Shown here piece after piece: positions 43,730 through 62,870 of a stretch of DNA of 64,000 nt. A program made the translations under genes and the position numbers. The notes beneath the pieces are model-generated. The model was not told the DNA's origin. It was given only the letters and a program-made list of their open reading frames with translations, and searched no databases. The stretch covers positions 6,354,501-6,418,500 of the forward strand of contig JAYJMM010000039.1 of the NCBI GenBank assembly GCA_037349105.1, read 5' to 3'. Numbering within the stretch: the stretch's first letter is position 1; each line of letters starts with the position of its first letter. Origin of the DNA: Limnomonas spitsbergensis (lineage: Eukaryota; Chlorophyta; Chlorophyceae; Chlamydomonadales).

Positions 43730-46700
43730 GTCGATGACACTCAAAGTGTCATGGGGAGCGTCCGTGCCGAGGAGGTACAGGACCTCGGCTCGCGGCGGAC
43801 GAAGCAGCAGACCGCGATGAAGTTATGGCGAGAGTGAGCAGAATGGTCAAACTAGGCATGCATAACAGAGAACTCGTGCTGATGCCAGCGCAGTCGAACA
43901 TAGTGTCATGGGCACTGACGACTCCCAGTGGTGCATGGCTGCATGCATGCTGAAGGCTTGCATTGGGGTTTGGGAGAAAAACAGCTTGTGAGGACTCTAT
44001 CTTCTTTGGGCTTCAATGGCAGGGTTTAAAACAAAAGTATCAAAGTCAGATGCCACTACCGGTTCATCAACTTCAGTAAGCACTGAGTACATGCATGCTA
44101 TGGAATGATCAGTGAAGGCTCAGAGGGCCAGAGAGGTTGGCTACATTTAAGCTTTTATGCAACGTCTCCTTTCTCGCCATGCAACCATGCATACGGTCCT
44201 GCAATGATTACTCCGATCCCATGGCATGCCTGTGGTCCTTCATAACCATTTGGATTGTATTCATGCAGCTAAGCAATGATTGTTCCAATCACTTGCATGG
44301 GGTCATACATGTTTGCGATCTTGCAACAATCAATTCAATTGCATGCATGCAGCTCGGTAATGATCATCTTGCTCACCTCCATGGGGTTCTACGACAAAAT
44401 ATGAAAATATCCAATTGCATGGATCTTCTTCCGCAATTTGTAACATGATGGCGGTTCTGCATGGCGGTTCTGCAAACATCCTTCTGATCGCATGCATCAG
44501 GTTCGATGCAATTCAACGCAACTGCATGCATGCATCCGTTCCTGCAATAATTAATCGGATCGCATGCTGGAGGTTCTGCGCTTATGACTGCGATGGCATG
44601 CAGGCATCAGTTTTGGCATCAATTTGATTAGCTGATCACATGCATGCAGCTTTGTGATGATAATCTGATCGCATGCATGGGAATCAAATGCGATGACTCC
44701 GACTGCATGCGTCAAGTTGTACCACAATCATCACGGCCACATGCATGGGGTGCTCCGCACTCGACACTGCCATGGCATACGTGTATGTGGGCCATTCAAG
44801 CACTTCACAATAACCCCTCCGATCGCGTGCATCAGGTTCTGATTAAATCGATTTCCTGCATGTGGGCCATGCAAGCACTAAATAATAATCCCTCCACTCG
44901 CATGCATGAGGTTCTGAACAAATAAATGCCATGTTATGCAGGTGGGCAGTGGAGGCACTCGGCCCTATGAGCTCTGAGCCCACGGATGCGGACTTGAAAT
45001 CGGTGAGTCAGCTCTGGATAGAGGTTAAGGTTTAAGGGTTGAAGGGCACCCACCGGTGGATGCGGACTTGAAATCGGTGAGTCAGCTCTGGATGGGCACC
45101 CACCGGTGGACGCTTATGGGTGAGTAGTGCTGTGCTCACCTAGTCACCTGGCAGGGGGAGGTCACCTGTCAGGACTCATACACGCAGTACCTCAGACAAC
45201 AGCATGAGTTATGTCACCATGCATCACGTGCGACAGAGCGCACCTCTTGAAGACAATGGCTGTCATGAGGACCATGGGTACCACCATGACGCGCACACAC
45301 ACAGGCATGCACGCAGGCACGCATGCAGCTTGGGTACGACCATGACGTGACATCCGGACCACAGCCAGCTTCCCCCGCGAGCCTGTGCCACCCCACCCAC
45401 CCCTATTTCTGCCTGCACGTTTGCAACACTTTCATACAAGTGACATGCTACGCCAACTCACCAATTGCTGCACCCTCAGCCTGCAGTAGTACTCCTGCTG
45501 CTGTCATGACTGTCACAGAACCTCATGAATCGCCATAAAACGTCGTACATTGTTACGGAACTTCATAAATTGTCATACAACTTAATAAAAGGCATCTGTC
45601 GTAACAAAACGCAGCGTGGCAAGAAGACCAAGGCGCTTGAGCGCAAGTGCGCGGAGCTGGCGGCCCGCGCGCAACAGCGGCTGGCAGCCAGCGCTACGCT
45701 GCGCTCCTCCTCGGCAGCGTGGGCGGGCGCTTCCGCTCGCCGAGGGTCCTCGCCTTACGGGCGCAGCCCAGGCAGCGAGCGCCCCGGCTCCGCTCCCTCC
45801 AACAGCATTAAGGAGATCACATGGGGGGCGAGGGAGGCGCGCAAACAGAACGTGAGTCGCGTGTGTACCTGGGGGGTAAGGGTTTAACCCCAAACCCGAA
45901 GCAGAACGTGAGGCGCCTGTGCAACTAGGGGTGTAGGGTTTAATCCTCAGCCCTAAGCCCTAGGGTTTAACCTTAAACCCTCAACAGATGATGAGTCGCG
46001 TGCACCCAGGGGTGTCCACCCGAGAGGCGTGTCCATACAGGGGCGGCTCTGGGTAGCCATGTGGGCGGGGGGGGGCTGACATTTTTACAAAGAATGCCTT
46101 TCTTTCTCTAAAATTGAAAAACGCTGTTTGACTTGTTTAATAAATAGTTTGCCTTGGTATTAGGGCTACGGGTTTAGGGTTTACCAATGGATTTAAAAAT
46201 ATGTTGAGAGGTCTTTACGGTGCCGGTATTTTTTTTAACTACGGGGGGGGGGGGGGGGAATATGGGTCAAGGGGAAAGCATATAGGGGGCCTGAGAGATT
46301 GGCCTGAGAGGCATTCCGTAGCCACAACGTGTTTTTCGCATGGCTCTAAATCACACGATGGAAACATCGCTGCAAGTTTTTTTGCGTTATATACCGTATC
46401 AGTTCTCTGTGCCGCTGCCTTTTCGATTTTGAGTCACAAACAAATTTGGTGTGGCCACCACGGGGCACGGCACTGGGCAGGGAACATGATACAGGGCAAA
46501 GGGTGGCAGGGAACATGAGATAGGGTTTAGGGTTAAAACCCTGAAAGGGCGTGCAGGGAACATGAGATAGGATTAAGGGTTAAAACCCTCAAAGGGCGTG
46601 CAGGGAACATGATATAGGGTTAAGGGTTAAAACCCTCAAAGGGCGTGCAGGGAACATGAGATAGGGTTAAGGGTTAAAACCCTCAAAGGGCGTGCAGGGA

Positions 46701-49700
46701 ACATGAGATAGGGTTAAGGGTTAAAACCCTGAAAGGGCGTGCAGGGGACACTGGGTATTGGCTAGGGAATGAAGGAGGTCGGGGACTAGGGTTAAGCTTC
46801 ACCCTGTACCAGAAATCTTAGTTATGTTGGAGGTCAGGGTTTAGGATTGAGCTCCACCCTGAACCCTAAACCAGAAATATTAGTAATGTTGGAGGTCAGG
46901 GTTTAGGGTTAAGCTCCACCCTGAACCCTAAACCAGAAATCTTAGTAATGTTTGAGGTCAGGGTTTAGGGTTTAGCTTCACCCTGAACCCTAAACCGGAA
47001 ATATTAGTTATGTTGGAGGTCAGGGTTTAGGGTTAAGCTTCACCCTGAACCCTAAACCAGAAATCTTAGTAATGTTGGAGGTCAGGGTTTAGGGTTAAGC
47101 TTCACCCTGAACCCTAAACCAGAAATCTTAGTAATGTTGGAGGTCAGGGTTTAGGGTTAAGCTTTACCTGCAACCTAAACCAGAAATATTAGAATGTTGG
47201 AGGTCATGGTTAAGCTTTACCTGCAACCCTCAACCCTAAATCCTAGGAATGTTGGAGGTCCGGGTTTAGCTTTACCTGAAACCCTAAACCCTAAAGCCCA
47301 GGAATGCTTGACGTCAGGGTCTGAGAGCAAGGGCAGGCACGTTAAACAGGCACGTTAAAGCAAGTCAGCCTGGCCACAACGAGAAGGACGCTTCCTAGCT
47401 AAACCCAGACCCTAAACCCTTAATCCTCAACCCATGGCCACGACAACAATGACACTTCCTAGCTGAACCCTAACTTCTATGAACCTCCTGTTGACGCTGC
47501 CTGGCCCATTCGAATCAAGCTGTATTGGATAGCGAATTGAAACGATGGTTTGTTGATCAAGAATGTGCACGTGCAAGCCTTGCGTGGTGAGTTGAGGGAG
47601 GACGAAGGCATAGGCGCAGACAACCCTTAACCCTAAACCTTAAACCCTAAACCCTGGAGCAAGGACCTCCGACCTCACGGGCCGGTGTCTCACGGGGGAC
47701 GTGACATGAAGGTGGACAGGGTTCGAACAAAGTCTGAATGCTGTATGGTTGCGTGACGTTGTGGGTGTGAATCTGGTGTGACTGTCCACACCACTGCTGA
47801 TTTGCCGCGCAGCTTTACCGGACAGCAAAGGAGGTTGGGCGTGCGGAGCGGGGCGCCTCCCAGCCCGGCAGCCCGCAGCAGCTGGGAGCAGGGGGCAGCC
47901 GGAGGCCGCCAGAGCTGGGGTCGCGGACAATGCTGAAAGCAGTGCTGGAAGGCCAGTCCCCGTTGCTTCAATCCCCGTTAGGCGGCGGCGGCGGCAGCGG
48001 CAGCGGCGGCCTGGTCAGGAAAGAGTCCATGCGTGCGTACAGCATGAGTGGCGATTCCGTCGGCGGAGGCCAGCCGCGGAGACCCTTAATGGCATCCGGC
48101 GGGAGCGCATCGTTCGGGCCCCGGCGCGGCACGTCGCCGGATGATCTAATCATTGGTGTTGGCGGCGGGGAGGGGTGGCAGCCGGCTGCGCCGCGCAGCG
48201 GCCGTATCAGCTTTGCCGGCGCCCCGATGGACAGCGAGGCTGCCTGGGGCGGCGGCGGTGGCAGCGGGGGGAGCAGGGCGGGCGCAAGGTTCGACTCGTC
48301 GCCGTCGATCAACGTGCGAGGGTCTTTGGCTAGCGGCGCTGTGTTGAGTTCGCGGACGGGAGCGGGGAGTGGCGGGAGTGGTGGCGGCTCGGCGGTGGTG
48401 AAGCTTCAGTATGAGGCGGAGGCATTGCGGCTACAGCTGGACGAGGCGCATGCCGCTGTGGAGGTGAGAGGAGAGTGGAGGAAAGAGATGGGAGAAGGTT
48501 TGGTTTATAGCCAAAGCGCATGCTGCTGTGGAAGTGAGAGGAGAGTGAAGGAGAGTGATGGAGAGAGGGTTTGGTTTAAGTTTTTGTTAAGGGACGAGGT
48601 GCATGCTGCTATTGAGGTTAAAAGAGAGTGGAGGAGAGCATTTTATTTTCGTACTTTTGGTTTTTATATTGGTTGATAGTGTGGTTGATGTTTTAGAGAT
48701 GACTCACATGCTGTTGGTGAGCTATGGGGAGAGAGAAGGGCGTAGAGAAAAGAGGGGTGGTTTTGTTTTCAGTTTGGATGATAGTTCAGGGACGAGGCGC
48801 AACCCCGCTTGCTGTTGTGGAGATGAGAGGGGGGGGAAGAGAGGGAGAGAAAGGGAAGGGGGCGAGAGGGAGAGAGTGTTTAGTGCATTGTTAGGGTTGA
48901 GTCACATGCTGCTGTGAAGGGGAGAGGGCAGGAGGAGTTACGGGGAGAGTCTCCTTGTACCTCTGCCCCCCCTCTCTTTTGCGCTTCCTCCTTCGTTCTC
49001 TCCATACCTTCCTCCTTGCCTTTCTCTCTTTTGATAAAGAGAAAGGCAAGGAGGGAGGTCTGGAGGGAACGAAGGAGGAAGAGGGAAAGAGAGGGGGGGC
49101 AGAGGTACAATTTGGGTGGACGCGTATCCATCTCCTGCGGTGCGGGGGGAAAGAGGCAGGGCGGGGGGAAAGAGGCAGGGCGGGGGGAAAGAGGCAGGGC
49201 GGGGGGAAAGAGGCAGGGCGGGGGGAAAGAGGCAGGGCGGGGGGAAAGAGGCAGGGCGGGGGGAAAGAGGCAGGGCGGGGGAAAGAGGCAGGGCGGGGGG
49301 AAAGAGGCAGGTTTCTCGTCTGAGGGAGCTGGCTCAGACGCAAAAAGGGGAAGAGGGAGATTGCCTGATCGGAGAGCATATCGAGAGGGACAGAGCAGAC
49401 CATCACCCGCAGGTTTCTAGTCTCAGGGCGTTGGCCGAGATGCAGCACGGGGAAGAGGGAGTGTGCCTGATTGGATAGCATATCGAGAGGGACAGAGCAG
49501 ACCATCACCCGCAGGTTTCTAGTCTCAGGGCCTTGGCCGAGATGCAGCACGGGGAAGAGGGAGTGTGCCTGATCGGATAGCATATCAAGAGGGACAGAGC
49601 AGACCATAACCCGCAAGTGTTCTGACCCAAGGTTCTGCCTCAGTACAAAGAAAGTGGCCTCTCCACATTGCTATGCCTTGAAATCATGCCCCCCTGCCCT

Positions 49701-52700
49701 CTGCCCCTTGCCCTCTGCCCTCTGGCGGCCCACACGTCCTCCCATTCCCTTCGATCGCCCCTTCCTCCCCTCCCACCCCTTCTGCCCCCTCCTCTCCAGG
49801 TGCGGGACACCATGGACCTCCTGTCCCTCTCCTGCCTAACCTCCCCCTCTCCTATTGCTCAACTTACTCCCCGTCTCCTGTCCCCTCATGCCACAGTCAC
49901 GCTCTGAGACCGAGGCACAGCTGCGGGACACAATCGACCTCCTGCGAGCTCGGCTGCATGGTCAGACGCAACGCGAGCTGGAGAACCAGCGTCGACTGCA
50001 GCTCCACACGCGTCTGGAGCCCATCTTTGACAAGCTGGCAGAATCATTCACGTTCCAGGTGGGATTGTGATGTAGGTGGGATGGGAGTGTGATGCAGGTG
50101 TGATGGGTGTGTGATGGTTGTTTCTTCTCTCAGTCTTTTTGTTTGCCCGACCTACCTGCGTTGGGTTGCATCACCTGTTTGCATTTTCTTCCCGGCTTTT
50201 CAGAGACACACCTTACCTTAATAATCCGTCACTCCTCCTCGGCTGGCGCCCCTCCGAACCCTGAAACCCTCTAACGCGTTCAACGTCTAACGCTGTCCCC
50301 TCACCCAGCTCACTTGTATTCTAGCTTACTTCCGCTTACCTGAGCTCTCAGCTTTTAATGCCCAGCCCCGGGTCCCTAAGGCAGCAGTCGTTTTCTCTTT
50401 ACGGAAACGTCGGATCAACCCTATACCCTATACCCTCAACCCTATACCCTTGTAACCTCAACCTTATACCCTTTTACCCTAAACCCTACACCCTAAACCC
50501 TACACCCTCAACCCTCAACCCTCAACCCTTAATCGTATAATTGTGGGCCAATCGTACACTTGTGGTCCATCAGTAGGCTAGTGGTCTAATCGCTGAATCA
50601 AGAACGGTCTTTATAATGATCTTCCGGTTATTTCGGACGTTAAATAAACATGCCTAGAAATATATAGCGTCTTAAGAACCACCCTGGAGTGTAGCTGAAG
50701 TGTAGCTGAATCCACCCTGTTGTGTATGCAGAGTCCACAAGAGGTGATGGACAGGCTGGAGCTGCTGGAAGATGACAAACTTGGCACCTTCGACCAGCTA
50801 CTGCAGGTATGTGTGTGAGGGAGACAGACAGACAGACAGGGAGGGAGGGAAGGACATGGACATGGACTAGGACAAGGGTAAGGGGGAAGGGTAAGGGGGG
50901 CAGGCTAATGATAATGCTATTACAAATGCTCCTACTTCTGCTTATACTTATGGTGATGCTTAAGCTTGAGGTAATGAGAATACGGATGTGATTGCTGATG
51001 CCCATGCCCATGCTCATACCCATGCTCGTGCTCATGTTGCTGCTGCCTCCCTTGAGCTCAGACCCAGGAGGAGGTGACGGGTCTGCAGGCCCAGGTCCAG
51101 GCAGCTAATGCGCGCGTGGAGGGGGTGAGGAGCCAGCTGGACTCAGAGCACATAAAGAGCACGGCCAAGCTGCAGCAACGCAATGAGGAGCTGCTGGATG
51201 AGCTGGGAAAGATGGAGGTGAGAGGAGAGAAGGGGGAAGGGCGGTGAGGGTCTAGGGCGGTGAGGGAATGGGGGGGGCTAGGGAGGGGCTAGAGGGGGGA
51301 AGGTAGGTGAGGGGCTAGAGATGGGCTAGGGGGGAGAGGGGGGCCTAGGGGGTTGAGGGGGCAGTGGGGGATGAGGGTCAAAGGACGGGGGGGGGGGCAG
51401 GGGGGCAGGGGGGCTAGATGTGTGAGGTGCTAGGGGGGGATGGGGGGTGGGGGGTGAAAGGGGCAGGAGGATGCATATTCCCGCCCCTGCCAGGCCTAGA
51501 TATTGGGCCCAGCGTTGCTTGCTACTATGCACCATCGGCACCATCGGAACAACCAGCTCATACCGTCCCCACCTGCTCCCACTATGTGACCTGTCCTGCA
51601 AGTGGTGATAGTTGTAGGAGGTTGAAGATGAGGACGAGGATACATCTTTCCGCCCTTGCCTGCTCTACGTCTGAGGCCATGCGCTGCTCGCTCCCCATGC
51701 AGCATCAAGGGAAACTGCTCATCTTACTCCCATGACAAGCTCCCCCTTCCCCCCCCGGCCCCAAAGCTTGATCCTCCCTCCTGCTTCCAATGTGGACTCA
51801 TTCTTGAGGTTCTTGTACTACTTGCTCCCCCGCAGCACCTGAACAGTCGGCTGGCCCTGCTGCTTGTATCTTGAGACATCTGCTCCTTTTCTGAGAAGTA
51901 TGTTCTTTTTCTCATTCTTGAGGGTCTTGCACTGCTTGCTCCCCTGCAGCACCTCAACAATCGGCTGACTGAGAGGCAGCACATGCTGGTCAGCCTGCAG
52001 ACTGCCATTCTTGACCTGTGGGGGCGCTGCCAGGTGTGTAGATGTGTGGAGGTGTGTGATGAAGTGTGAAATTGTGTACCAAAGGGTTTGAATGTGTGGA
52101 ATCATTGAGGACTGATGGGGTGTGGGTGTTTGGAGTTTTGCAATGAGGGAATATTTTGATGTGTGGAAACTATTGGACGGAGGGGTGTGGATGTGTGGAA
52201 ATGAGTACCAAAGGTGTGTACGTGCAGGACTGTGCACCAAGGGGTGTGGATGTGTGGATTATCTTGCACCAAGGGGTGTGGATGTGTGGAAATCAGCACC
52301 ATGGGTGCATGCGGGCGGGATTGTGCATGAGGGTGTGGAATGTGGAAGTGTGGAATAGTGCAACGAGGGGTATTAATGTTAATGATGTTTGCATGTTACA
52401 TATGCTTGTATGATGCTGATGTAATTATGTTGCTGATGTTTTTATGTCACCATGCGATAGGGTTTACTAGGGTTTACTAGGGTTTACTAGGGTCCGCACG
52501 TGCACCAAGAGTCGGGGCTTGCGGTCTGGGATTTTCAGTTCTCAGGCTTGTCAAGCTTTATTTGTCACGCTTTCATTTCGCTGGCTTGTCAGACTTTCGT
52601 TCGTCTGCGCAGTTGCTTCAAGGGTGCAGAAGCATAAGTTATGTGTCATCTGAGCCAAAACCTAAACCCTAAACCCTTAACCCTATGTTGTTCAGGCTGA

Positions 52701-54325
52701 TCCGTAAACCCTGAACCCTCGTCCATGCATATGTCGTACAGGCTGATCTCTCAACCCTAAACCCTAAACCATACATCTGTCGTTCATGCTAATCTCTCAA
52801 CCCTCAACCCTAAACCCTGTTTCTGGTCCCTGTACCCTTTATCCTAAACCATGTTTATGTTATGCAAGCTGATACCTAAACCCTAAACCCTAACATCTTC
52901 TTGTTCTGCAGGCTGATACCTGAACCCTAAACCCTAACATCTTCCTGTCCTGCAGGCTGATACCTGAACCCTAACCCTAAACCCTAACATCTTTCTGTTC
53001 TGCAGGCTGATACCTGAACCCTAAACCCTAAACCTTAACATCTTCCTGTTCTGCAGGCTGATACCTTAACCCTAAACCCTAACATCTTCCTGTTCTGCAG
53101 GCTGATCCCCACTTCACCGCAGCGAACAACGGAGAAGCACCTGCCAAGGCCCATGCCCGTCAAGACCTCGAGGCATCGGGCAGCATGGGCGGCGGCGCGG
53201 ACGCGTCGGACGGCACCAACCTGATGAGAGACATGGAACCGCTGACCGTGCTGTCGCTGGTGCAGGAGTACGTCATTGCAAGGTGAGAATACTTTTTTTA
53301 TTTTTAATGCTTGTGTTATCTTTGCTGGCCGCAATTTGTGAGGTGCGATCGTTGGTGCAGGAGGAAGTCCTCGTCATCGCTCGGTGAGAATATATGATTC
53401 CTATGGCTGGTCTTGTCAATGCTTTTATTTCTTCTATTTATTTATTCCTGACATTGTTGGCGTCAATTTTGGCGGTATTGGAACACGCAACCGCACGGTG
53501 AGCATACGTGATTCCTGTTTTGCTTTTATTATTGTTGGCGTCAATTCTGGCGTTGCAGGAGTACGTCATTGCACGGTGCGAAAACGTTTGTATTTCAATA
53601 CTGGTCTTCTTGCTGGCTGCAATTTGTGAGGTGTGATCGTTGGGGCAGGAGTATGTCATCGTGAAGGGGGGGCATTTTGATTCTTTTTGCGTCAAATCAG
53701 CAAAGTGCTCTTGTAATTATTGGTTCAAGACTCTGGTACCCCCATCCAATGCCATTGTAGTTTTTGTTGTCGTTGTTGCTGTTCTCCTTGTTGTTGTTGT
53801 TGTCATGTCTGTCATGGTAGCCTTTACTGTTCTACTATTGTTGCTGTTGTTATTTCCGTGCTGTTGCTGGTGTTGCCGCTGGCATCCCCATTGACATTTG
53901 TGTTGCTGCCTAGGTGCCATCCTCATCATTGCTGCTGCCTTTAATTTCGTTGTGGCAGGTTTTGCTGCCATTCTATACTTCTTGCTATCGTTGCCGCCTC
54001 TGACATTGTTGTTCTTGCTGCTCTTCCTCTCCAGGAGCCCCCAGCTAGCTAAACCTTGAACCATCACCAGAAGCCCCCAGCTGTCTAACCCCTAAACCCT
54101 CTCCAGGAGCCCCCAGCTGGCTAAACCCAAAACCCTGAACCCTCTCCAGGAACCCTCAGCTGGCTAAACCTTAAACCCTGAACCCTCTCCAGGAGCCCCC
54201 AGCTGGCGAGTCGGCACTACTTAGATGCTCAACGGGTGGCCAACAGGGTCTGGTCACACCATTTCAGACACAAGGCGGGCATGCGTGGCAAGGTGGGGGC
54301 TGGGGTGTAGGGGCTAGGGTTTCTA

Positions 54326-54358
<33 letters not shown>

Positions 54359-57300
54359 ATGCTGATGCTGATGCTGATGCTACTGCTACTGCTACTGCTG
54401 GTCGCTCCATTTCAGCCACAAGGCGGGCATGCGCGGTAATGTGAGGGTTAGGGGTTATGGTTTGTATTGCTGCTACTGCTACTTACTGCAACTGCTACTG
54501 CTACTGCTGCTACTGCTACTGCTACTGCTGGTTGCTCCATTTCAGACACAAGGCGGGCATGCACGGTAAGGTGGGGGTTTAGGGTTTGTATTGCTGCTAC
54601 TGCTACTTACTGCTACTGCTACTATTACTGCTGCTACTGCTACTGCTGGTCGCTCCATTTCAGACACAAGGCAGGCATGCGCGGCAAGGTGGGGACTGGG
54701 ATGTAGGGGCTAGGCTGCTCCTGCTGGTCATGCCATTTCAGTCACAAGGCAGGCATGATCCCTGAACCTCCAAACCCTTTTCTTAACTCTGAAACTCGAC
54801 ACCCTTTTTGTATGCCTTGAGCCTCCATACCTTTTTCCTGAACCCTTGCTCAGGTGATTGAGACGTTTGAGCAGCTGAGCGGCCTGGCGGACATCATGGC
54901 CAGCAAGGTCAAGCTGGTCACCAGCCAACTGGAGGACTCCAAGGTGAGCTACTTGTTGTGCCATGCGGCACACGCCATGCGCCATGCGGCACGTGTGATG
55001 GGACTAATGGGCCATGCGGCACAAGTAATGGGCCATGAAGCACGTGCCCTGCGCCATGGGCTAGATCTGGCAGACACATGGCCAGCAAGGTCAAGCTGGT
55101 CACCAGCCAACTGGAGGACTCCAAGGTGAGCTACTTGTTGTGCCATGCGGTACACGCCATGCGCCATGGGCCCATGGCCCATGCAACACGTGCCATGCGG
55201 CAAGCGCCATGCGTCCTGCGCCTAGATCTTCCCGGCCTCATGTCAAAATGATAAAGCTTGTTACCAGCCAGCTGGAGGAATCAAAGGTGAGCTGTTCAAC
55301 CCTGACCCCCGGTCTAGTCTTGCCACCAGCCAGCTGGATGACTCCCAAGGCTAGCTGTCTGTTTTGGTTAAAGCAATTTGAAAGGCAAGGACTAGAGGCG
55401 GTTTATTTCTCAGTCGAAGGTGAACCAGTCAACTAGAGGACAGTCAGGACACCCAAGGTAGGGGTTAAGGGTTTCGCTTAACCCTAAACCCTAAACACTC
55501 AGGACACCCAAGGTAAGCTTCATGTTATGCCATGCGGCAAGTGCCATGCGCCCTGTAGAATGTGCCATGCGCCATATGGCACGCGCCATGCGGCATATGT
55601 CATGCGCCCTGCAGCATGTGCCATGCGCCATATGGCACGCGCCATGCGCCAAATGGCACGCGCCATGCCCCATGCGGCACGGGCTATGCGCTATGTGCTA
55701 GATCTGGCAGACATCATGACCAGCTGGGTCAAGCCTGTAACCTGTCAGCAGTAGGACTCTCGAGGTGAGCTACTTTGTGTGGTTGCCGCATCTGTCCACT
55801 GGCCTTTGGCGTAGGGGCCTGGCGGTGTGAACCGGGAGACGGGGGAAGCTGGTGAGTGAAGCCCTTGGAGCGGCTTCTGCTTGCGGTTGCAGCGTTGCAG
55901 CAGCGGTCCATCAGTTTTCTGCAAAAGTGTCGGGCAGTTGGAGCAGGGAGAACAACCTTAACCCTCAACCCTAACACCTAAACCCTCAACCCTACAAACT
56001 TGTTTAAAGAACCTTCTCAACCTCTTGTTCTCCCTTTACCTCCTCCAACCTCCTCCCATCCTCCTTCAACCTCATTAACCGCCTCCAACCACCTTCACCG
56101 CCTCCAACCTCCTTAACTTCCACCTCCTGCATAACCTCAACAGGATAACCAGCGCTACCTGAACACGTCACTCAAACGGGTGGAGGTGCAGAAGCGCCAG
56201 CTGGCCAACCAACTTGAACAAAGCAATCAGATGGTCCGAGAGATGTCGGGCGTGCCTCGCAAACAGGTGCGAAGTTTGCCAGTCGGAATGTAATTCGTTT
56301 GACTGAACAAATATCAGTGCTTTGTCTGCCAACATGACTAGTTTGACATGCTTGTATGCTAATGACGTTTGGCAGGCTAAATAAATTAGTTTGACAGGAC
56401 AATTTGTGAGTATTTGTTGGGGAAACAACTGTGCGGTAAGACGCACTCCCGCCCCCTCGAAATTCAGGTTTCCGGGTAGTACACAGTTGCTGCACGACGT
56501 TTATATAATCATTGTATTGAAGGTGTGCGATAAGGAGGCGGTGATGGGGGTGGGGCGGTGACACGCAAACAGGTGCGTAGGGCATGAGCGCAAAGCGCTT
56601 GTGGTTCACCAGGCAGAAGTCTAGTTAAGGTTGTAGGGTTTAGTGCATCATTCCAAACTTGTGTCGTTCACCAGGCAAAGCCTAGTTTAGGGTTTAGGTT
56701 TTAGGGCATGATCCCAAAACCTGTGTGGTTCACCAGGCAAAGCCTAGTTTAGGGTTAAGGGCATGAGCGCAAAACGCTCGTGGTTCACCAGGCAAAGCCT
56801 AGCTTAGGGTTTAGGGTTAAGGGCATGATCCCAAAACCTGTGTGGTTCACCAGGCAAAACAATTGTGTTGCATTCCCTCGGAGCACCTAACCCGAAGAAT
56901 CCTAAAGAAAACCATCCTAAAGCAGCTTGATCAGAGCAACCACTGACGGTCAGGCAGGTGTGGGAAAAGGGTGTTAGAAAAAATAGTGTTTCATATAGGA
57001 AAAAGTGGGGAGCCTGGCAAGGAAAGTTTGGACACGAAAGAATGTGCATGGGGGCTAGATCATAAAACAAATCTTGCGTTTTTTTCTTTCTGCTGCTAAT
57101 TTCTGCCTGATTTGCACCTCCCCCCTCGCAGCGGCCCCAGAGCGCGGCACCAAAGGCGTCCTACACATCGTACGTCCCCGAGGCGATGGGCCGGCAACAG
57201 AAGCCGCAGCGGCCACAATCCGCCCGCCCGCTGACACAAGGCGACAGGAGCAGCTTCCAAGCAGCTTCCTCCTCGTCCCTCTCTAGCTCGCAGCGGCATC

Positions 57301-57758
57301 ATTCGACGTTGGACGCCGACTCCTCGGTCCCTGGGGGAGCGGCGGCGGGGCCGCCGCCGCGCCCCGCGCGGCCGCAGTCCGCCGCCGCCGCGTCGGGTTG
57401 CGGCGGCGCTGCGGCAGGCCGGGGAGAAAACGACGTTGACGGGACCTGGTCGGGCGCGGGACCGCGCAAGCCGAGGCCGAGCTCGGGGAAGCCATCGGAG
57501 CGCCTCGAGGTTCACCACACAGTCGCACGGCGCCCAGCAGGGGAGCACTGGGGGAGTTACGCTGCGGCCACAGCGCCGCCGCCGCCGGCGGCTGTGGCCG
57601 GTGGGGCTCTGTACCATGCAACGATGGAGGCTGGCGCTGGGGTCAGGCCGGCGGGCGGTACAGCGCCCGCGGCCTCGAGATGGATACCGCCGCACAGAGC
57701 GGACATGGAGGCTAGCTTTCTCTCGCGGCTGGAGCGGGCGGCAGGAGCCGCCTCGTGA
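43730..57758 (+). CDS. Multi-exon coiled-coil protein, ciliary/centrosomal-like
   Basis: The exons are 43730-43833, 44942-45002, 45615-45851, 47813-48463, 49311-49412, 49897-50058, 50732-50806, 51062-51217, 51950-52033, 53101-53282, 54193-54292, 54854-54943, 56144-56266 and 57132-57758 (stop). All phases agree and total 917 residues, with the true start upstream. A basic/Ala-rich N-terminal third is followed by a Gly/Ser-rich disordered block. Heptad-rich coiled coils come next (EAQLRDTIDLLRARL, TGLQAQVQAANARVEG, KRVEVQKRQLANQLEQ), separated by a helical region (LVQEYVIARSPQLASRHYL, then WSHHFRHKAGMRGK). The C-terminus is low-complexity and begins RPQSA, with RPQSARP soon after, motifs frequent in ciliary and centrosomal proteins. 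I cannot name the family. Exon 5 is the least certain. Nearly every intron carries copies of its own splice junctions. Confidence 0.75.
44137..44930 (+). repeat. Degenerate gcatgcatg repeats in intron 1
   Basis: Loose units of about 50-100 bp share gcatgcatg, ggttctg and caataatc. The last units include atgtgggccattcaagcact (about 44784) and atgtgggccatgcaagcact (about 44859), which resemble the true acceptor/exon start at 44935-44960 (atgcag|gtgggcagtggaggcact). Confidence 0.7.
46503..46749. repeat. 47-bp minisatellite with telomere-like core
   Basis: Five tandem units have gtgcagggaacatgagatag followed by an inverted telomere-like pair (ggttaagggtt and aaaaccct). It lies in the long intron 45852-47812 of the coiled-coil gene. 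The pair can form a small hairpin in each unit. Confidence 0.9.
46780..47290. repeat. About 66-bp minisatellite with telomere-like motifs
   Basis: Eight units carry gttggaggtcagggtttagg, then gttaagct, then accctgaaccctaaaccag and aaat(c/a)tta. The units contain both TTTAGGG and CCCTAAA cores facing each other. The last three units are decayed. It lies in the same intron as the 47-bp array. Confidence 0.9.
48956..49109 (+). repeat. Long foldback hairpin in an intron
   Basis: The arms of about 72-75 nt are reverse complements with roughly ten mismatches. They run from tgtacctctgccccccctct inward to gcctttctct, and back from agagaaaggc outward to gagggggggcagaggtaca. The loop is only about six nt (near 49031-49036). 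It lies in intron 48464-49310 of the coiled-coil gene and would be transcribed on the plus strand. A transcript would form a nearly continuous duplex, the kind of precursor from which green-algal small RNAs are often cut. It could also be a transposon foldback. Confidence 0.85.
49137..49312 (+). repeat. G-rich 16-17-bp minisatellite ending in a 3' splice site
   Basis: About eleven units of gcggggggaaagaggcag. The final unit supplies the acceptor GAGGCAG|GTTTCT at 49310/49311, so the array consists of copies of the intron 3' end. The G-runs could form G-quadruplexes on the plus strand. Confidence 0.85.
49311..49616 (+). repeat. Three 102-bp units with AG|GT borders; unit 1 exonic, units 2-3 intronic
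   Basis: The units 49311-49412, 49413-49514 and 49515-49616 are each exactly 102 bp (34 codons) and begin GTTTCT after CAG. The first is open (VSRLRELAQTQKGEEG and onward). The second and third carry an in-frame TAG where the first has GAG. The CAG|GTTTCT at 49412/49413 can act as donor and the intron then runs to 49896. Confidence 0.8.
50415..50530. repeat. CCCTAWA telomere-like tract
   Basis: Short tandem variants of accctataccct, taaaccctacaccc and tcaaccc lie within intron 50059-50731. Similar short tracts occur in most long introns of the window (for example 7780-7930, 52660-53090, 60930-61510). They are interstitial and do not mark a chromosome end. Confidence 0.7.
52687..53100 (+). 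repeat. Tandem acceptor copies before exon 53101
   Basis: The motif (c/t)tgttctgcaggctgat is repeated about eight times (near 52687, 52732, 52781, 52858, 52903, 52947, 52999 and 53048), spaced by telomere-like ccctaaaccc. The ninth occurrence, ttctgcag|gctgatcccc, is the true acceptor and exon start at 53101. Most copies keep CAG|GCTGAT. Confidence 0.9.
53349..53668 (+). repeat. Decayed copies of the exon 53101-53282 3' end and donor
   Basis: Four diverged copies (about 53349-53400, 53471-53515, 53550-53585 and 53636-53668) resemble the exon end gtgcaggagtacgtcattgc with its AG|GTGAGAA donor. The third keeps gcaggagtacgtcattgc exactly. At the other end of the same intron, four copies of the next acceptor and exon start (ccaggagcccccagctggc) precede the true one at 54193. 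Confidence 0.8.
54262..54757 (+). repeat. Five copies of an exon 3' end, spaced by CTG/ACTG repeats
   Basis: The end of exon 54193-54292 (atttcagacacaaggcgggc, then atgcgtggcaag|gtgggg) recurs at about 54405-54440, 54535-54575, 54652-54695 and 54727-54757. Between copies are (CTG)n, (ATG CTG)n and (ACTGCT)n microsatellites. Three of the four extra copies keep a GT at the donor position. Confidence 0.9.
54886..55775 (+). repeat. Copies of exon 54854-54943 3' end plus ccatgcggcacg repeat
   Basis: The exon end (gccagcaaggtcaagctggt, then caccagccaactggaggac and tccaag|gtgagct) is repeated almost perfectly at about 55069-55150 and in diverged form at 55212-55290, 55310-55350 and 55690-55775. Between them run many copies of a 9-20-bp gccatgcg(c/g)(c/g)a motif. 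Confidence 0.9.
56590..56860 (+). repeat. About 60-bp minisatellite in the last intron
   Basis: Five units share gtggttcaccaggcaaagcc, then tagtttagggtt and gggcatga(g/t)c(g/c)c. It starts just after a second copy of the preceding exon end and donor (cgcaaacag|gtgcg at about 56564, compare 56258-56271). Confidence 0.85.
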
Positions 57759-57990
57759 TGAGTTGATGGACCTAGTTTAGGGTTGGGGTTGAGGGACCCG
57801 CAACACATAAATATCTCAACTAGCTTGAGCCGCCTCGTGGCGGGCTGGCGGGCTTCCGCGATGTGCCCTCAAAAGCAGAGCCTCATGGGATGGAGTTGGA
57901 AGTTCTGCACATGGTATGCTCAAATGCGTGCTTGGAACTTGAACGTCGAACTTTCCCTGTCATAGACTCTCTTGGTGTGTAGCCTCACTC

Positions 57991-57995
57991 TGTAA
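57991..57995 (+). promoter_or_regulatory. TGTAA poly(A) signal candidate
   Basis: TGTAA lies 233 nt behind the stop of the coiled-coil gene, a usual 3' UTR length for green algae. Confidence 0.4.
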
Positions 57996-59029
57996 ATTAA
58001 ATTTCGTAATTTGTGAGACAGTGGGTCACAATTGTATCATTTGGTGTGACTTTGGTGCCGCAGTTTGACCCAATTTACGTTGGTGACTCGGGAGCCGCAT
58101 GCATGTACGTGCTTGTTTTCAGTGCGCACTTCAGACACATGGCTGTGACGTTACGCATCTGGGCCCTGCTGGAAGGCTCGGCCTTTGAGGGCGCCCAACA
58201 GTGAAGTTGGGAGAAGAAAGGAAAGTTACAGCGGAAATTATTTCACAGCCCCGTGGAGCATCGCCTTTGATGCACGTGATAGGTGCCTGCAAATTATTCG
58301 GAGCACTAATTGATCTAGGATAGCGAGCGAAACAAAAGATACCGCTCCCCAAGCCAGAGCCAGGAGCCAGAGTCATATAACTGCAACCCTCAGGCATTCC
58401 GGTATACTTCCATGGCCAGCCTGTTCTCAGCCTATTTGGGTCTTGCGCTCGCTGATGCTCTGGGCAACAGTTGTCCCCCGAGACCCCCAGCCCCATCAAT
58501 ACTGCCGTCACGCTGCCTAATCGACGATGATGGTCCCAACATGCCCCTGCGCAATAAAGGAGGCATCAATTAGCAAGAAGTGTGGCTTTAACCCCCCGGA
58601 GTTGCTGTCATAAGATCAGTGCAGCCACCCACAAGTATTTATTTTTTAATAGGGCTAGGCAGAGCGAGAACTGGTCGGAAGCCGATGAAATGTTAAGTCC
58701 AGCAAAGCATTAGACTTGATTATATACGCCTGCAAACCACTCCTAGCACTGATGACGTGTAAAACCGGCGTATTAAGAAAAGGTTAACCACCTCAAACAC
58801 TAAATAAACTTGGACATGCAAAGATGTGACAAGTATTTTCCCCCCTCGAAAAACTGCTTTCCTTTTTCAAACCGATTCCTATGCATCATCCACTTGTATC
58901 ACACGAAAAACACAGGACATGCGGCTAACAAAGTAAAGTGCCCCTCGCCCAAGTCTTCATATCCTAACACACAATCAGTTGTGGCAAGCTCACACGGTGC
59001 CAGTGCCACGCACAAGCTGTATGCCTGGT

Positions 59030-59275
59030 TCATAATTTATTATGCCTAGTTCATGATTTATTAAGCCTAGTTCATACTTAATTATGCCTAGGTCATACTT
59101 GATTATGCCTAGTTCATACTTGATTATGCCTAGGTCATACTTGATTATGCCTAGGTCATACTTGATTATGCCCAGTTCATACTTGATTATGCCTAGTTCA
59201 TAATTATGATACCTGTTTCATAATTATGATACCTGGTTAATAATTTATGATGCCTGGTTCATAATTTATGATGCC
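59030..59275. repeat. 22-bp tandem repeat
   Basis: About eleven units of attatgcctagttcatact, with g/g-t variants (aggtcat, agttcat), grading into ataatttatgatgcctggtt at the right. Confidence 0.9.
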
Positions 59276-59641
59276 TGATTGGCAGGATCAGCTGTTGTTG
59301 AGGATGGGGTGCCCACAGAACGAAAAGGCGCGCTAAATGCTAAAATGCAAGCATTGTGAATGCGGAAGCAATATGAATGAAAGGCTGACGTTCCATACCG
59401 TGCTACCTTGCATTTCTGATATGGTTTAGGGTTTAGGAGAGTTCCCAACGAAAAGGCGAGTGAGAACGCCACAATGCGAGCATAACTAATTTGAATACCA
59501 TATATGATTGGTTTGCGGACTTCCCTGATCGTTAACATTTCAAAACCATTTACCCCCCCCTCAGAAATTAAAACCCTAAACCCTAAACCCTCAGAAATTT
59601 CAAACCACTTAAAAGCCTTTTTCCGAAATCCTTTCAAAAAA

Positions 59642-62600
59642 TCACGCTGGGAAAAACATGCTGGGAATGCCGATGGGAAAGGCCCCTGCTGACCTGATCA
59701 TGGACCCCATGGACACCAGCTCTCGCCTCCCGCCGCCGGTCGCCGTGCCCGTCGGGTCAGTCTCCCCAGTGCCGCTCGTTCTGGCGCTCGGTCGCATGCT
59801 TGCCAAGGGGGTGCCCGAGGAGGGTGCCTCAAACGCGGTGTCCTGGGCCCGAAGGTAGTTCTGTATGTAGTCGATCTGCCGCGAGATCTGTAAATAAATA
59901 GATACGCAAGAGAGTGTGTGGATTAAGGACGTGAAATCTGTGAACACGGGCAGGCATGGGCACATAACAATTTGCAACAACGCAAATTGTAGACATGGGC
60001 ATTTCGGCTTGCATGGGCGCATGGCAATTTGCAGCAGCACGATCTCTTGAGGCGAGCATGTTCGCATGGCAATGTGCAGCAAGAAAATCTGTGGACACAA
60101 GCATGCATGGGCACATGGCAATTTGCAGCAAGAAAATCTGTAGACACAGGCAAGCATGGGCGCATGGCAATTTGCTGCAGCGAAATATGTGAACATGGGC
60201 ATGCATGGGCGCATGGCAATTTGCAGCAGCGAAACATGTGAACATGGGCATGCATGGGCGCATGGCAATTTGCAGCAGCGAAACATGTGAACATGGGCAT
60301 GCATGGGCGCATGGCAATTTGCAGCAGCGAGATCTGTAGACACAGGTGAGCAAGGGCGTGCATAACAACCATTGTGGTTTTGAGACGGTACCCAGTGCTC
60401 TACATCAGGACCATGGAAACAATTTCTTTCGATTTCAAACGCGGTGAAACAGAACATGAAAATCCCGAGTGTCTGTGTATGCGTGCGAGGGCGTATATTG
60501 CGACTCAGCCATCTCGAAAACAGCAAGCTGCTGATGAAAAGCTGTCAAAAAACCCTATTTCATTGACGGCGATGACCATCTCCCTTCAAAAACAGGACAC
60601 ACATGCAATTCAATCTCAAGAAGGATATACCTCTCAAGAGGCACTTTCAGGGTTCAGGGTTTAGGGTTAATGGTTTAGGTTTGAGGGTGTCATTTGCACA
60701 TCAGGACTATCCGCATTCTCGGTGGAACAAAGCACCGCCTATTGCAGTCGCACAGATGAGACCTCCTAGCCTCGCACCCTGAGTAGGATCTCGTCCCTCG
60801 TGGCATTGCTCGCATGGTTCCGTTTTTCGAGCTCCTTGAGCGCCATGAGGATGGCTTCATCATTACCACGTGCCTTGTCTTGGGTTTGGATAAGGGCCTC
60901 GTTGGTGACCCACCTAGGGGATGAGGGTTAAGGGTTTCGGGTTAGGGTTTCGGGTCCCTGAACCCTAAATCCTTGGGGCTGGATGAGTGCCTTGTAGGTG
61001 GGCCACATGGGGAGAGTGAGGGTGAAGGGTCTATGGTTTAGGCTCCCTCAACCCTAAATCATTGGGTTTGAATGAGGGCCTCATTGGTGGCCCACCTGGG
61101 GGGAGTGAGGGTTAAGGGTTGAGGGGGTAGGGTCCCTAAACCCTAAACCCTTGGGTCTGGATGAAGGGTTCATCGGTGGCCCACCTGGGGACAATGTGTG
61201 TTTAGGGTTTAGGGCCCATTAACCCTAAATCCTTGGGTCTGGATTAGGGCCTCGTTGGTGGCCTACCTGTGGAGAATGTGGGTTTATGGTTTATGGTCCC
61301 AACCCTACATCATTGGGTCTGGATGAGGGCTTCATTGGTGGCCCAACTGGGGTGAGTGAGGGTTAAGGGTTGAGGGGGTAGGGTCCCTTAACCCTAAACA
61401 ACTGGGTCTGGATGAGGGCTTCATTGGTGGCCCACCTTGGAAGAATGTGGGGTTAGGGTTAAGGGTTAAGGGTTTATGGTTTTGGTTTTACAGTTTAGGG
61501 TTAAGGGCCCCTTGACCCTAATCCTTGGGTCTGGATGAGGGCTTCATTGCTGGCCCACCTGGGCAGAAAATCTGGAAGGGTAGAGGGAGGGAATTCCAGG
61601 AGGATCAATAGTGTGTGTGTATGAGAGAACATGCAGACGTGTGTGCACTCACTTGGTTTTCAGCTGGTTCATGATGTCGATGTACATGGCGTCCAGGTGC
61701 TCCCGGAGCTGGACCTGAATGTTCTTCACCATTTCCCCATCCACACCACCACCTGCCCCCTGAGAGGAGCAAGGGTCATGGGGTCAGAGTAGGGGCACAG
61801 ACTTGTAAAACAAATGGACCTTCTAGAAGACAGCTTCATTTGTTTCAGAACCCACGCTCAACTGCCTTGGACCTAGCTGTCCTTGACCATTTCCCCATCC
61901 ACGCCGCCACCTGACCCCTGAGAGCCATGGAGTCAGAGTAGGTGCACAAACTTGAAAAACAAGTGGATCTTCTGTCAGCGTGCACAAAGCCCGGTCCAAG
62001 GTAGTTGAGCGTGGGTTCTGCAAGATAGGGTAGGATGGTCTAAGTAGGCGAGGAGGGCAAATGGAAACAGGCAAGAAGGGTAAAAGGGGAGGAGGGCAGA
62101 ATGTACCCTGCTGGCAGGGTTTAAATGGAGAGCTGAGTGGCCACCCTTACCCCTAACACCAAGATGTACCCCACTGGCAGGGTTGCAAAGGAGACCAGAA
62201 CAAAAAACAACTGCATTTGTAAAGCAAAAACTTTCATCAGCCAGGCAGCTATATAATATAAGGTTATATCCCGTAAATGGAGCTTCAAACATCTAACATC
62301 TGATGCTTAGAGCCATATAAGACAACCACCGGCCCGCGCTGGCACGACCCGGCGAGCGCCGTATATGGTTATATCATATAGCTGCAGTATACCCTAGATG
62401 AAAGATAGAGAGGTCATCTATCACCAATTAACCATGGTAGCATGATACGGCTCGATACGGCACAGGTTCAGCCGGATTGTACTACCATGCAGTATACCCT
62501 AGATGAAAGATAGAGAGGTCATATATATTAACTACAGTTAACTACAAACCCCGGATCAAACACTAGTGTCCCTTGGATGAGAGGATAGACAGGTCATTCC

Positions 62601-62870
62601 TTAAAGAGTGTACATGTTATCCCTTCAATTGTGTACAAATCACCCTTTGTGCACCTTGGATGAAAGAGTAAACAGGTCATCTAGCAACAATTAACCACAT
62701 GGCATGCCCTGGATAAAACCCTAGTGTCATTTGGGTGAAAGAGTAAACAGTTCATACCTTGCAGATATAAAGAGTGTACAAGTTATCCCTTTACATACCT
62801 TGGATGAAAGACTAGCCAGGTCTTCTATCACAGCATTTACTGCTTTCCGCTGGTCCTCGATGTCATCGGT
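59642..62870 (-). CDS. 3' part of a helical/coiled-coil protein gene
   Basis: The exons in minus order are 62870-62799 (24 codons), 61759-61653, 60913-60778 and 59887-59642 (stop), with matching phases (0, 2, 0) and GT-AG borders. They give 186 C-terminal residues. Upstream exons lie beyond the window or behind the repeats at 63035-64000. The protein is mostly amphipathic helix (TDDIEDQRKAVNAVIEDLA, VQLREHLDAMYIDIMNQLK, AILMALKELEKRNHASN, RQIDYIQNYLRAQD) with a Ser/Gly/Met-rich disordered tail ending FFPA. I cannot name the family. All three introns are packed with copies of their own splice junctions. Confidence 0.7.
59945..60350 (-). repeat. About 54-bp acceptor-derived minisatellite
   Basis: Seven to eight units share gcatgggcgcatggcaattt and gcagcg. 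Read on the minus strand, units begin (T/A)CAGAT(C/T)T(C/T)GCTGC, best kept at 60325-60338. This matches the true acceptor and exon start ACAG|ATCTCGCGGCAG at 59888/59887. Confidence 0.8.
60974..61565 (-). repeat. Seven copies of the acceptor and start of exon 60913-60778
   Basis: On the minus strand ccccag|gtgggccaccaatg with aggccctcatccagacccaa recurs near 60974-61010, 61066-61100, 61152-61190, 61232-61272, 61314-61352, 61402-61440 and 61526-61565, spaced by telomere-like ggttaaggg tracts. The true junction is cctag|gtgggtcaccaacgag at 60914/60913. A separate copy of the 61759 exon start lies at about 61880-61920. Confidence 0.9.
62390..62758 (-). repeat. Five copies of the exon 62870-62799 3' end and donor
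   Basis: On the minus strand, forms of gacctgtttactctttcatc followed by caag|gt recur at about 62390-62418, 62497-62526, 62569-62598, 62652-62683 and 62728-62758. The true exon end is gacctggctagtctttcatc with caag|gtatgt at 62799/62798. Confidence 0.85.

Follow-up and report, generated by a model that had tools for sequence, protein, structure and literature searches.

Genes and Introns in the Window

We analyzed 64,000 nucleotides (nt) of the green alga Limnomonas spitsbergensis (contig JAYJMM010000039.1, positions 6354501-6418500; genome size 260 Mb). This whole stretch is called the window, and positions are counted from its first letter. Two genes on opposite strands were modeled in it (Table 1), and most of their introns carry copies of their own splice junctions, i.e., the end of the upstream exon with its donor GT, or the acceptor AG with the start of the downstream exon. 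These copies, their occurrence in other genes of the same genome and their probable origin are the subject of this work.

The gene models were built by hand, compared with homologues and reconstructed with a spliced aligner developed for the purpose. In the hand-built model, the exons of the plus-strand gene join into an 840-codon open frame. In protein searches its product matched best an uncharacterised Chlamydomonas eustigma protein (64% identity over 67% of the query), and further relatives were found in Volvox, Gonium, and Haematococcus. A protein search of the same genome matched only the gene's own locus (10 exon matches) and found no second copy for comparison. From exon 3 onward all junctions are contiguous in the C. 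eustigma homologue; at one of them the annotated Haematococcus homologue has an insertion. Nine introns (P3-P11; introns are numbered P1-P11 in this gene and M1-M3 in the minus-strand gene) were recovered by the spliced aligner from the C. eustigma homologue alone, in agreement with the hand models. The first exon and the start are the least certain part of the model. The minus-strand model covers four exons up to the stop and is based on the joined open frame and the GT/AG borders. The exon models of the initial annotation held overall, except that one acceptor was wrong: the intron given as 48464-49310 ends at 49896 (48464-49896).

Copies of Splice Junctions in the Window Introns

An intron was scored positive when an exon-only 40-nt query reached a score of at least 16 against its own intron, or a junction-spanning query (18 + 18 nt) at least 18. 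Under this combined rule 10 of the 14 window introns were positive (P1, P3, P6, P7, P8, P9, P10, P11, M1, and M2). As controls, each window intron was paired with 40 chaperonin introns, not length-matched, and 1/560 of these pairings was positive. Eleven introns had been named at the outset as holding copies of their own junctions, and ten of them passed. All three introns of the minus-strand gene had been included; M1 and M2 are positive, and M3 (60777-59888) is indistinguishable from the controls, its short acceptor-like copy being visible by eye and not separable statistically. The introns left unnamed (45852-47812, 50059-50731, and 50807-51061) were all negative, the first of them borderline with a score of 17.

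Exon-only queries of 45 nt gave a stricter comparison, against the other 13 introns and 50 shuffles. The donors of P1, P3, P8, P9, P10, and M1 and the acceptors of P3, P6, M1, and M2 beat both. The P8 acceptor scored above the other introns and level with the best shuffle. Reverse-complement scores of these queries were 13 or lower. The window introns are repetitive throughout, and 45% of their complex 30-nt windows have a local direct repeat (score of at least 15).

P1 is the freshest case in the window. Its copy lies 74 nt downstream with a junction-spanning score of 35, and telomere-like filler was seen between the two by eye. The perfect copy in P10 lies 182 nt downstream and is followed by weaker ones. 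In P7 each unit of the array consists of a polypyrimidine stretch, CAG, about 8-10 nt of exon and CCCTAAA-like filler. Assembly artefact was rejected as the source of the copies, since most of those shown carry point changes relative to the junction. The copies had been described as decaying away from the real junction. Among 28 junction sides with at least two copies this is a trend only: of the nearest and the farthest copy, the nearest is the better one in 18/28 and the worse one in 9/28, with a tie in 1/28.

The intronic copies in M2, compared with the exon edge 60913-60878, share differences from the real exon that are mostly synonymous by eye, as if the exon rather than the copies had drifted, under protein constraint.

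An intron of a UMP-CMP-kinase-like gene, named by eye from its translation, had been said to behave likewise. It does, by reading of the DNA only and outside the statistical test: the unit of its 43-bp array holds what reads as the exon end CAT plus the donor GTGAGTGG.

Table 1. Genes, exons, and junction copies or arrays in the window.
Feature	Position	Strand	Description
Plus-strand gene	44967..57758	+	12 exons; 840-aa protein, function unknown
Plus-strand gene, exons 1-6	44967-45002, 45615-45851, 47813-48463, 49897-50058, 50732-50806, 51062-51217	+	
Plus-strand gene, exons 7-12	51950-52033, 53101-53282, 54193-54292, 54854-54943, 56144-56266, 57132-57758	+	
Intron P1 (45003-45614)	45058..45093	+	Perfect 36-nt copy: 19 nt of exon end and 17 nt of donor side
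Intron P3 (48464-49896)	48516..48545	+	Donor copy, junction-spanning score 30; another copy deeper in the intron
Intron P6 (51218-51949)	51824..51853	+	Acceptor copy about 114 nt upstream of the real acceptor; junction-spanning score 28
Intron P7 (52034-53100)	52875..53106	+	Array of 44-50-nt units ending in the real acceptor; junction-spanning score 25
Intron P8 (53283-54192)	53343..54192	+	Donor copies at several distances; acceptor array 54026-54207
Intron P9 (54293-54853)	54378..54694	+	Donor copies, 118-130-nt units, trinucleotide-repeat spacers
Intron P10 (54944-56143)	55081..55151	+	Perfect 45-nt exon-end copy (55081-55125) with donor
Intron P11 (56267-57131)	56561..56858	+	Short donor copy and 62-nt array; score 18, at threshold
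Minus-strand gene	59640..62864	-	Four exons including stop-codon exon; joined open frame, GT/AG borders
Minus-strand gene, exons	62864-62799, 61759-61653, 60913-60778, 59887-59640	-	
Intron M1	61760..62798	-	Donor copies; acceptor copy carrying about 50 nt of exon sequence
Intron M2	60914..61652	-	Seven scored acceptor copies, 81-121 nt apart, TTTAGGG/CCCTAAA-like spacers
UMP-CMP-kinase-like gene, array	12527..13143	-	43-bp unit, 14.3 copies
Further occurrences of the kinase array	25597-26213, 38667-39283	-	In 13-kb tandem copies

Copies in Chaperonin Introns of the Same Genome

For a wider sample, chaperonin (PF00118) exons were located in the same genome and sixteen loci were taken. Fifteen gave usable gene models (L039-L053); L054, a fragment with a stop, was excluded. 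The 15 models encode 470-548 residues without an internal stop and contain 139 introns. The best 120 of 7774 homologues were mostly epsilon subunits and archaeal thermosomes, so the references for the other subunits were weak. Re-referencing each gene to its homeolog, or an unpaired gene to its own first model, left the junctions of shared exons unchanged, and two genes lost terminal extra exons. For the copy tests the 22/139 introns shorter than 150 nt were left out and 117 were kept.

Under the combined rule 47/117 chaperonin introns were positive, compared with 4/1170 length-matched controls. In both gene sets, then, intronic repeats match their own junctions far above control pairings, the comparison that had been proposed as a check. 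Exon-only 40-nt queries scored at least 16 in the own intron for 17/117 donors and 26/117 acceptors; the same queries did so in 4/2340 and 6/2340 pairings with length-matched introns of other genes. Exon pieces taken 60-100 nt from the junction matched in 0/83 and 1/88 cases. The positive share was 3/26 at 150-300 nt, then 10/30, 19/35 and, at 800 nt or more, 15/26, a trend to which the greater room for copies in longer introns may also contribute. Junction copying is thus not confined to the window, and the process acts in many genes, as sampled from one protein family in one genome.

Chaperonin intron length rises from 5' to 3' along the genes (median 243 nt in the first third vs. 543 nt in the last; Spearman 0.35). 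For Chlamydomonas, introns close to the gene start have been reported to be short (PMC8226300).

Source, Orientation, and Anatomy of the Copies

The source of a copy is the exon edge that touches the intron. Junction queries matched other introns of the same gene in 0/986 donor and 0/986 acceptor pairings, and the far edge of the same exon gave no match either (exon end vs. the preceding intron, 0/102; exon start vs. the following intron, 0/111). Nearly all copies are direct. Over 234 junction sides, 43 direct own matches scored at least 16, compared with 4 inverted ones (2/117 donor, 2/117 acceptor).

The exon part of the 51 scored copies reaches 19-78 nt inward. The copies end within 2 nt of the true junction in 20/23 donor and 22/28 acceptor cases. 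Similarity continues on the intron side (extension score of at least 10) in 14/23 donor and 11/28 acceptor copies, vs. 4% of random positions. Some copies are near head-to-tail duplicates, and others are set off by tens of nt of unmatched spacer.

Copies lie close to the junction they resemble: 22/23 donor copies within 396 nt of the donor, the remaining one near the far end of its intron, and 28/28 acceptor copies within 508 nt of the acceptor. This proximity speaks against intron creation of the AGGT type (Rogers model), which we rejected as their source.

Distances of up to 450 nt were searched for the spacing of repeats. None of 33 acceptor repeats lies less than 70 nt from its partner and 28/33 lie at 70-170 nt, compared with 33/129 and 46/129 of interior repeats (p = 0.0004 and 3.5e-07). 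Donor repeats (3/25 under 70 nt, 13/25 at 70-170 nt) do not differ significantly from the interior (p = 0.2 and 0.18). We read the acceptor spacing as a probable splicing filter: an AG between the branch point and the acceptor would be used, so an acceptor copy would have to lie upstream of the branch point. The P7 array, with its short units and only 8-10 exon nt in each, is an exception to the 70-nt spacing that the distance test did not register.

Homeologous Chaperonin Genes

Four pairs of chaperonin genes (L044/L045, L048/L049, L050/L051, and L052/L053) are old duplicates. Their proteins are 83-99% identical, 27-46% of fourfold sites have changed, and the members lie on different contigs, which suggests an old whole-genome or segmental duplication. 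The exons of such homeologs align, and the introns align only in patches. Intron positions are kept, homeologous introns are often very different in length, and it is within these existing introns that the extra copies are found. Of 37 homologous introns, one was left unpaired. Among 72 homologous junction sides, 11 were positive in both homeologs, 11 in one and 50 in neither.

Sites at which the homeologous exons differ were used to trace the copies. In copies present in one homeolog only, 64 such sites match the own exon, 18 the other exon and 17 neither. Where copies occur in both homeologs, each copy matches its own exon at 13 sites, none are swapped, 21 show a shared state (14 AA and 7 BB) and 9 have a third letter in one copy or both. 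Judged from these matches (64 vs. 18 and 17; 13 own vs. 0 swapped), which indicate that copying runs from exon to intron, much of the copying seems to postdate the split of the homeologs.

Telomere-like Spacers

The telomere type of this genome is TTTAGGG (3306 + 2214 four-unit matches; contig 1 starts with an array). Telomere-like 9-mers, counted across introns and not at duplication breakpoints, occur in chaperonin introns at 26 times the dinucleotide expectation, yet in only 18/139 introns. Their density is 17.8 per kb in window introns vs. 1.3 in chaperonin introns. In introns of at least 200 nt (chaperonin and window, most of the 9-mers coming from window introns), the last fifth holds 89 CCCTAAA-type against 4 TTTAGGG-type 9-mers on the sense strand. 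The TTTAGGG type is commoner only in the first two fifths (21 vs. 13 and 9 vs. 4). Speculatively, the CCCTAAA forms near intron ends may serve as pyrimidine-rich tracts.

Local Direct Repeats in Non-coding DNA

We surveyed local direct repeats (score of at least 15) in 30-nt windows. Low-complexity windows or segments were excluded here and from the segment-crossing and youngest-repeat counts below, and the minimum intron length was 200 nt for the survey, 300 nt for the junction profile (91 introns used) and 250 nt for the youngest-repeat count (98 used). The share of windows with such a repeat was 20% in chaperonin introns, 13.5% in the DNA next to the chaperonin models and 0.9% in coding sequence; two intergenic stretches within the analyzed 64,000 nt gave 12-13%. 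Inverted repeats amounted to 0.4% in chaperonin introns and 5.5% in window introns, where they are less rare and telomere-like motifs are present in either orientation.

Among 30-nt windows of the chaperonin set, the fraction containing a local repeat is 0.25 across donor junctions, 0.23 across acceptor junctions and 0.23 inside introns. Repeat frequency rises from about 60 nt before the junction, is flat across it, and is 0-0.01 by 75 nt into exons. The youngest repeats (at least 93% identity) cover 7/98 donors and 2/98 acceptors against an interior coverage of 0.058 and 0.056. At 88% identity the values are 9/98 and 8/98 against 0.075 and 0.065. Borders thus do not look like special targets or hotspots. 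The initial annotation had proposed a genome-wide process that grows introns by repeated duplication across exon-intron borders. Its action in many genes was borne out and it fits intron lengthening; growth aimed at the borders was not supported by these junction and interior values or by the youngest chaperonin repeats, which show no border excess.

The best explanation, to which we give a probability of about 0.73, is that short stretches are frequently duplicated nearby in direct orientation, often with filler, and that splicing filters the outcome. Non-coding DNA would be reshaped by local direct duplication, in which blocks of about 20-80 nt are re-copied directly, mostly 40-400 nt away and often with unrelated or telomere-like filler. 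An event spanning a splice junction would duplicate the exon edge plus its GT or AG. Since the outermost junction would still yield a correct mRNA, such an event would be tolerated, and the inner copies would turn intronic and decay. Events wholly within exons would be removed, so that introns would grow both at their own edges and internally. At the 3' end, an upstream acceptor copy with a long exon piece would be tolerated only at about 70 nt or more, with the branch point in between. The likeliest molecular route would be that staggered breaks or paired nicks are filled in and end-joined, occasionally with filler supplied by telomerase or template switching. We infer this route from repair biology; the neutrality of junction-spanning events and the branch-point filter are likewise our interpretation. 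The phenomenon is in these terms an unusually intense variant of a known process.

Alternative Explanations

Ordinary minisatellite slippage or unequal exchange only, with arrays that start at an exon edge by chance and no filler-type repair, is an unlikely source. Regular arrays do speak for it, such as the donor copies of one chaperonin gene (L042; 83, 202, 322, 442, and 581 nt, plus a weak copy at 465), the 81-121-nt steps in M2 and the 43-bp kinase array. However, adjacent repeats (length at least 0.9 of the period) make up only 16% of interior and 0-5% of junction repeats, a minimum because ungapped segments were counted. Many copies are single and have unmatched spacer, and slippage alone therefore does not start copies.

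In a second alternative, which we consider quite unlikely, the process is border-targeted: breaks or nicks concentrate at junctions, for example in association with transcription or splicing, and are repaired with duplication of the exon edge, so that the borders drive intron growth. The youngest chaperonin repeats and the flat profile argue against it, and the flanking DNA is repeated too. Several observations nevertheless weigh against untargeted short-range duplication. A junction window has repeat partners on one side only and an interior window on two, so that per direction the junction is about twice as rich. Segments of all ages cross a chaperonin junction 0.154 times at donors and 0.239 times at acceptors, compared with 0.057 for a uniform rate. 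In the 14 window introns, junctions are covered at 2/14 + 2/14 with at least 93% identity (interior 0.085 and 0.077) and at 4/14 + 4/14 with 88% (interior 0.137 and 0.132). Junction coverage there is above the interior at each identity cut-off (5/14, 4/14, and 2/14 per side), and 14 introns are too few to decide. The 11/72 sides positive in both homeologs exceed the approximately 3.7 expected from the margins by our arithmetic. These shared sides may derive from copies made before the split, from prone junctions or genes, or from exchange between exon and copy. Two further observations count against the best explanation given above. Repeat spacing is wider in flanks than in introns (median 298 vs. 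133 nt), and flank repeats may be partly of a different kind from intron repeats. Also, 17/28 acceptor and 9/23 donor copies hardly continue on the intron side (extension below 10), so that they are no simple head-to-tail duplicates and require the assumption of filler or of rearrangement at a later time. As to the all-age excess, exon conservation should keep old pairs recognizable: by our own reasoning, not by simulation, a pair with one copy in a conserved exon should remain recognizable for roughly double the time of a pair in free DNA, which would give a roughly twofold excess of old pairs at junctions.

It is doubtful that the splice junctions themselves are recurrent DNA break sites in this alga. 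Breaks coupled to transcription or splicing would then be repaired by fill-in with telomerase-like filler, introns would be extended by fresh border copies, and exchange between exon and copy may continue. Possible marks of such breaks are the junctions positive in both homeologs, the higher junction coverage in the window introns and the narrow range of acceptor spacing (70-170 nt). If borders were break hotspots, they would link splicing with genome instability.

That the copies are decoy splice sites kept by selection, regulating or buffering splice-site choice, as had also been suggested for the window, is very improbable. In 20 donor and 22 acceptor copies (9/51 copies that end more than 2 nt from the junction were left out), the donor GT matches at 0.80/0.90 and the acceptor AG at 0.82/0.68, above the intron letters next to them. 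The pyrimidine tract of several acceptor copies looks good by eye, and a survey of Chlamydomonas reinhardtii and Volvox reports tandem repeats enriched near intron ends (PMC3887541). However, the ten adjoining copied exon letters match at 0.60-1.00 on the donor side (mean about 0.86) and 0.73-1.00 on the acceptor side (mean about 0.87), so that GT and AG are preserved no more faithfully than the exon letters copied with them; detection by exon similarity favors the exon letters in this count, and the invariance of the real GT/AG favors GT and AG. Copy spacing ignores the reading frame (17, 15, and 19 of 51 copies modulo 3), and for this reason we also rejected a role of the copies as alternative exons in frame. 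Among young chaperonin repeats there is no excess at junctions over intron interiors, and half of the sides positive in at least one homeolog (11/22) are negative in the other.

Introners, transposons or cDNA-derived insertion, although transposon-driven intron gain is known in diverse eukaryotes (PMC9860276), can hardly be the source, since only the touching junction is matched and junction queries rarely match introns of other genes (a test of the copied exon parts, not of whole introns), and no evidence for such insertion was found here. Short-range direct duplication filtered by splicing remains our preferred explanation.

Relation to Known Processes

Natural insertions in rice are reportedly the subject of work by Vaughn and Bennetzen from 2014. 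Among the cases closest to the copies in the alga is a potato RdRp gene, in which a tandem duplication spans an intron-exon boundary and carries the branch site, pyrimidine tract and 3' splice site (PMC4974935). It differs in that one gene is concerned and a new intron was made there, whereas the copies in the alga lie inside existing introns, 40% of those tested. The initial annotation knew of no established name for the process; boundary duplication has been described in this one potato gene (PMC4974935).

Duplication of an exonic AGGT as a source of new introns has been reviewed (PMC3443670) and has in common with our case local tandem duplication and neutrality through splicing. There, however, as we read the model, the start of the new intron is like the downstream exon and its end like the upstream exon, whereas in the alga the similarity at either end of an intron is to the adjoining exon. 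In mouse and human cells, fill-in by CST and Pol alpha-primase at staggered breaks has been described as producing small tandem duplications (PMC8355091); the likeness lies in short direct duplications made by fill-in and end joining, the difference in the cells in which they were shown. Telomeric repeats inserted at break repair in mammals, sometimes with target-site duplication, are a further case of telomere-like DNA inside chromosomes (PMC2246262). In the alga, by contrast, the stretches are degenerate, lie among exon-edge copies, and have their C-strand forms crowded into the last intron fifth. For C. reinhardtii and Volvox carteri, an excess of repeats near intron-exon junctions has been reported in a survey that counted repeat motifs, and no exon-sequence copies are reported in its available part (PMC3887541).

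In the open-access literature, searched by title and start of the abstract (subscription literature lay mostly outside), we did not find widespread copies of a gene's own exon edges in its introns described, nor their scale, the own-edge rule, the acceptor spacing or the evidence from homeologs. Intron lengthening is usually inferred from old sequence that can no longer be read, and in this alga the events still can. For about 40% of the introns tested, the duplication can be traced to its source, the own exon edge, and the homeolog pairs give direction and a rough age, so that intron growth becomes measurable. The copies are also natural test cases of a spliceosome that ignores near-perfect duplicate donors or acceptors about 70-500 nt away. 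They are a warning as well: in genomes of this kind, gene prediction and read mapping may put junctions in the wrong place.

Other Repeats in the Window

A 13.07-kb segment carrying the UMP-CMP-kinase-like gene on the minus strand is present three times in tandem (period 13071), at approximately positions 3465-42500. The first and second copies differ by 9 mismatches in 13058 aligned sites. The third shows about 1% mismatches, part of them from forced alignment beyond its end. The copies are too alike to show any new duplications among them. A 148-nt stretch at 5992-6139 in the first copy is absent from the other two, and by adjacent-copy scores it is not a local duplicate. At 942-2456 lies a 137-copy array of an 11-bp unit (AGACATAAGCC), in which several reverse-strand frames stay open for hundreds of codons.

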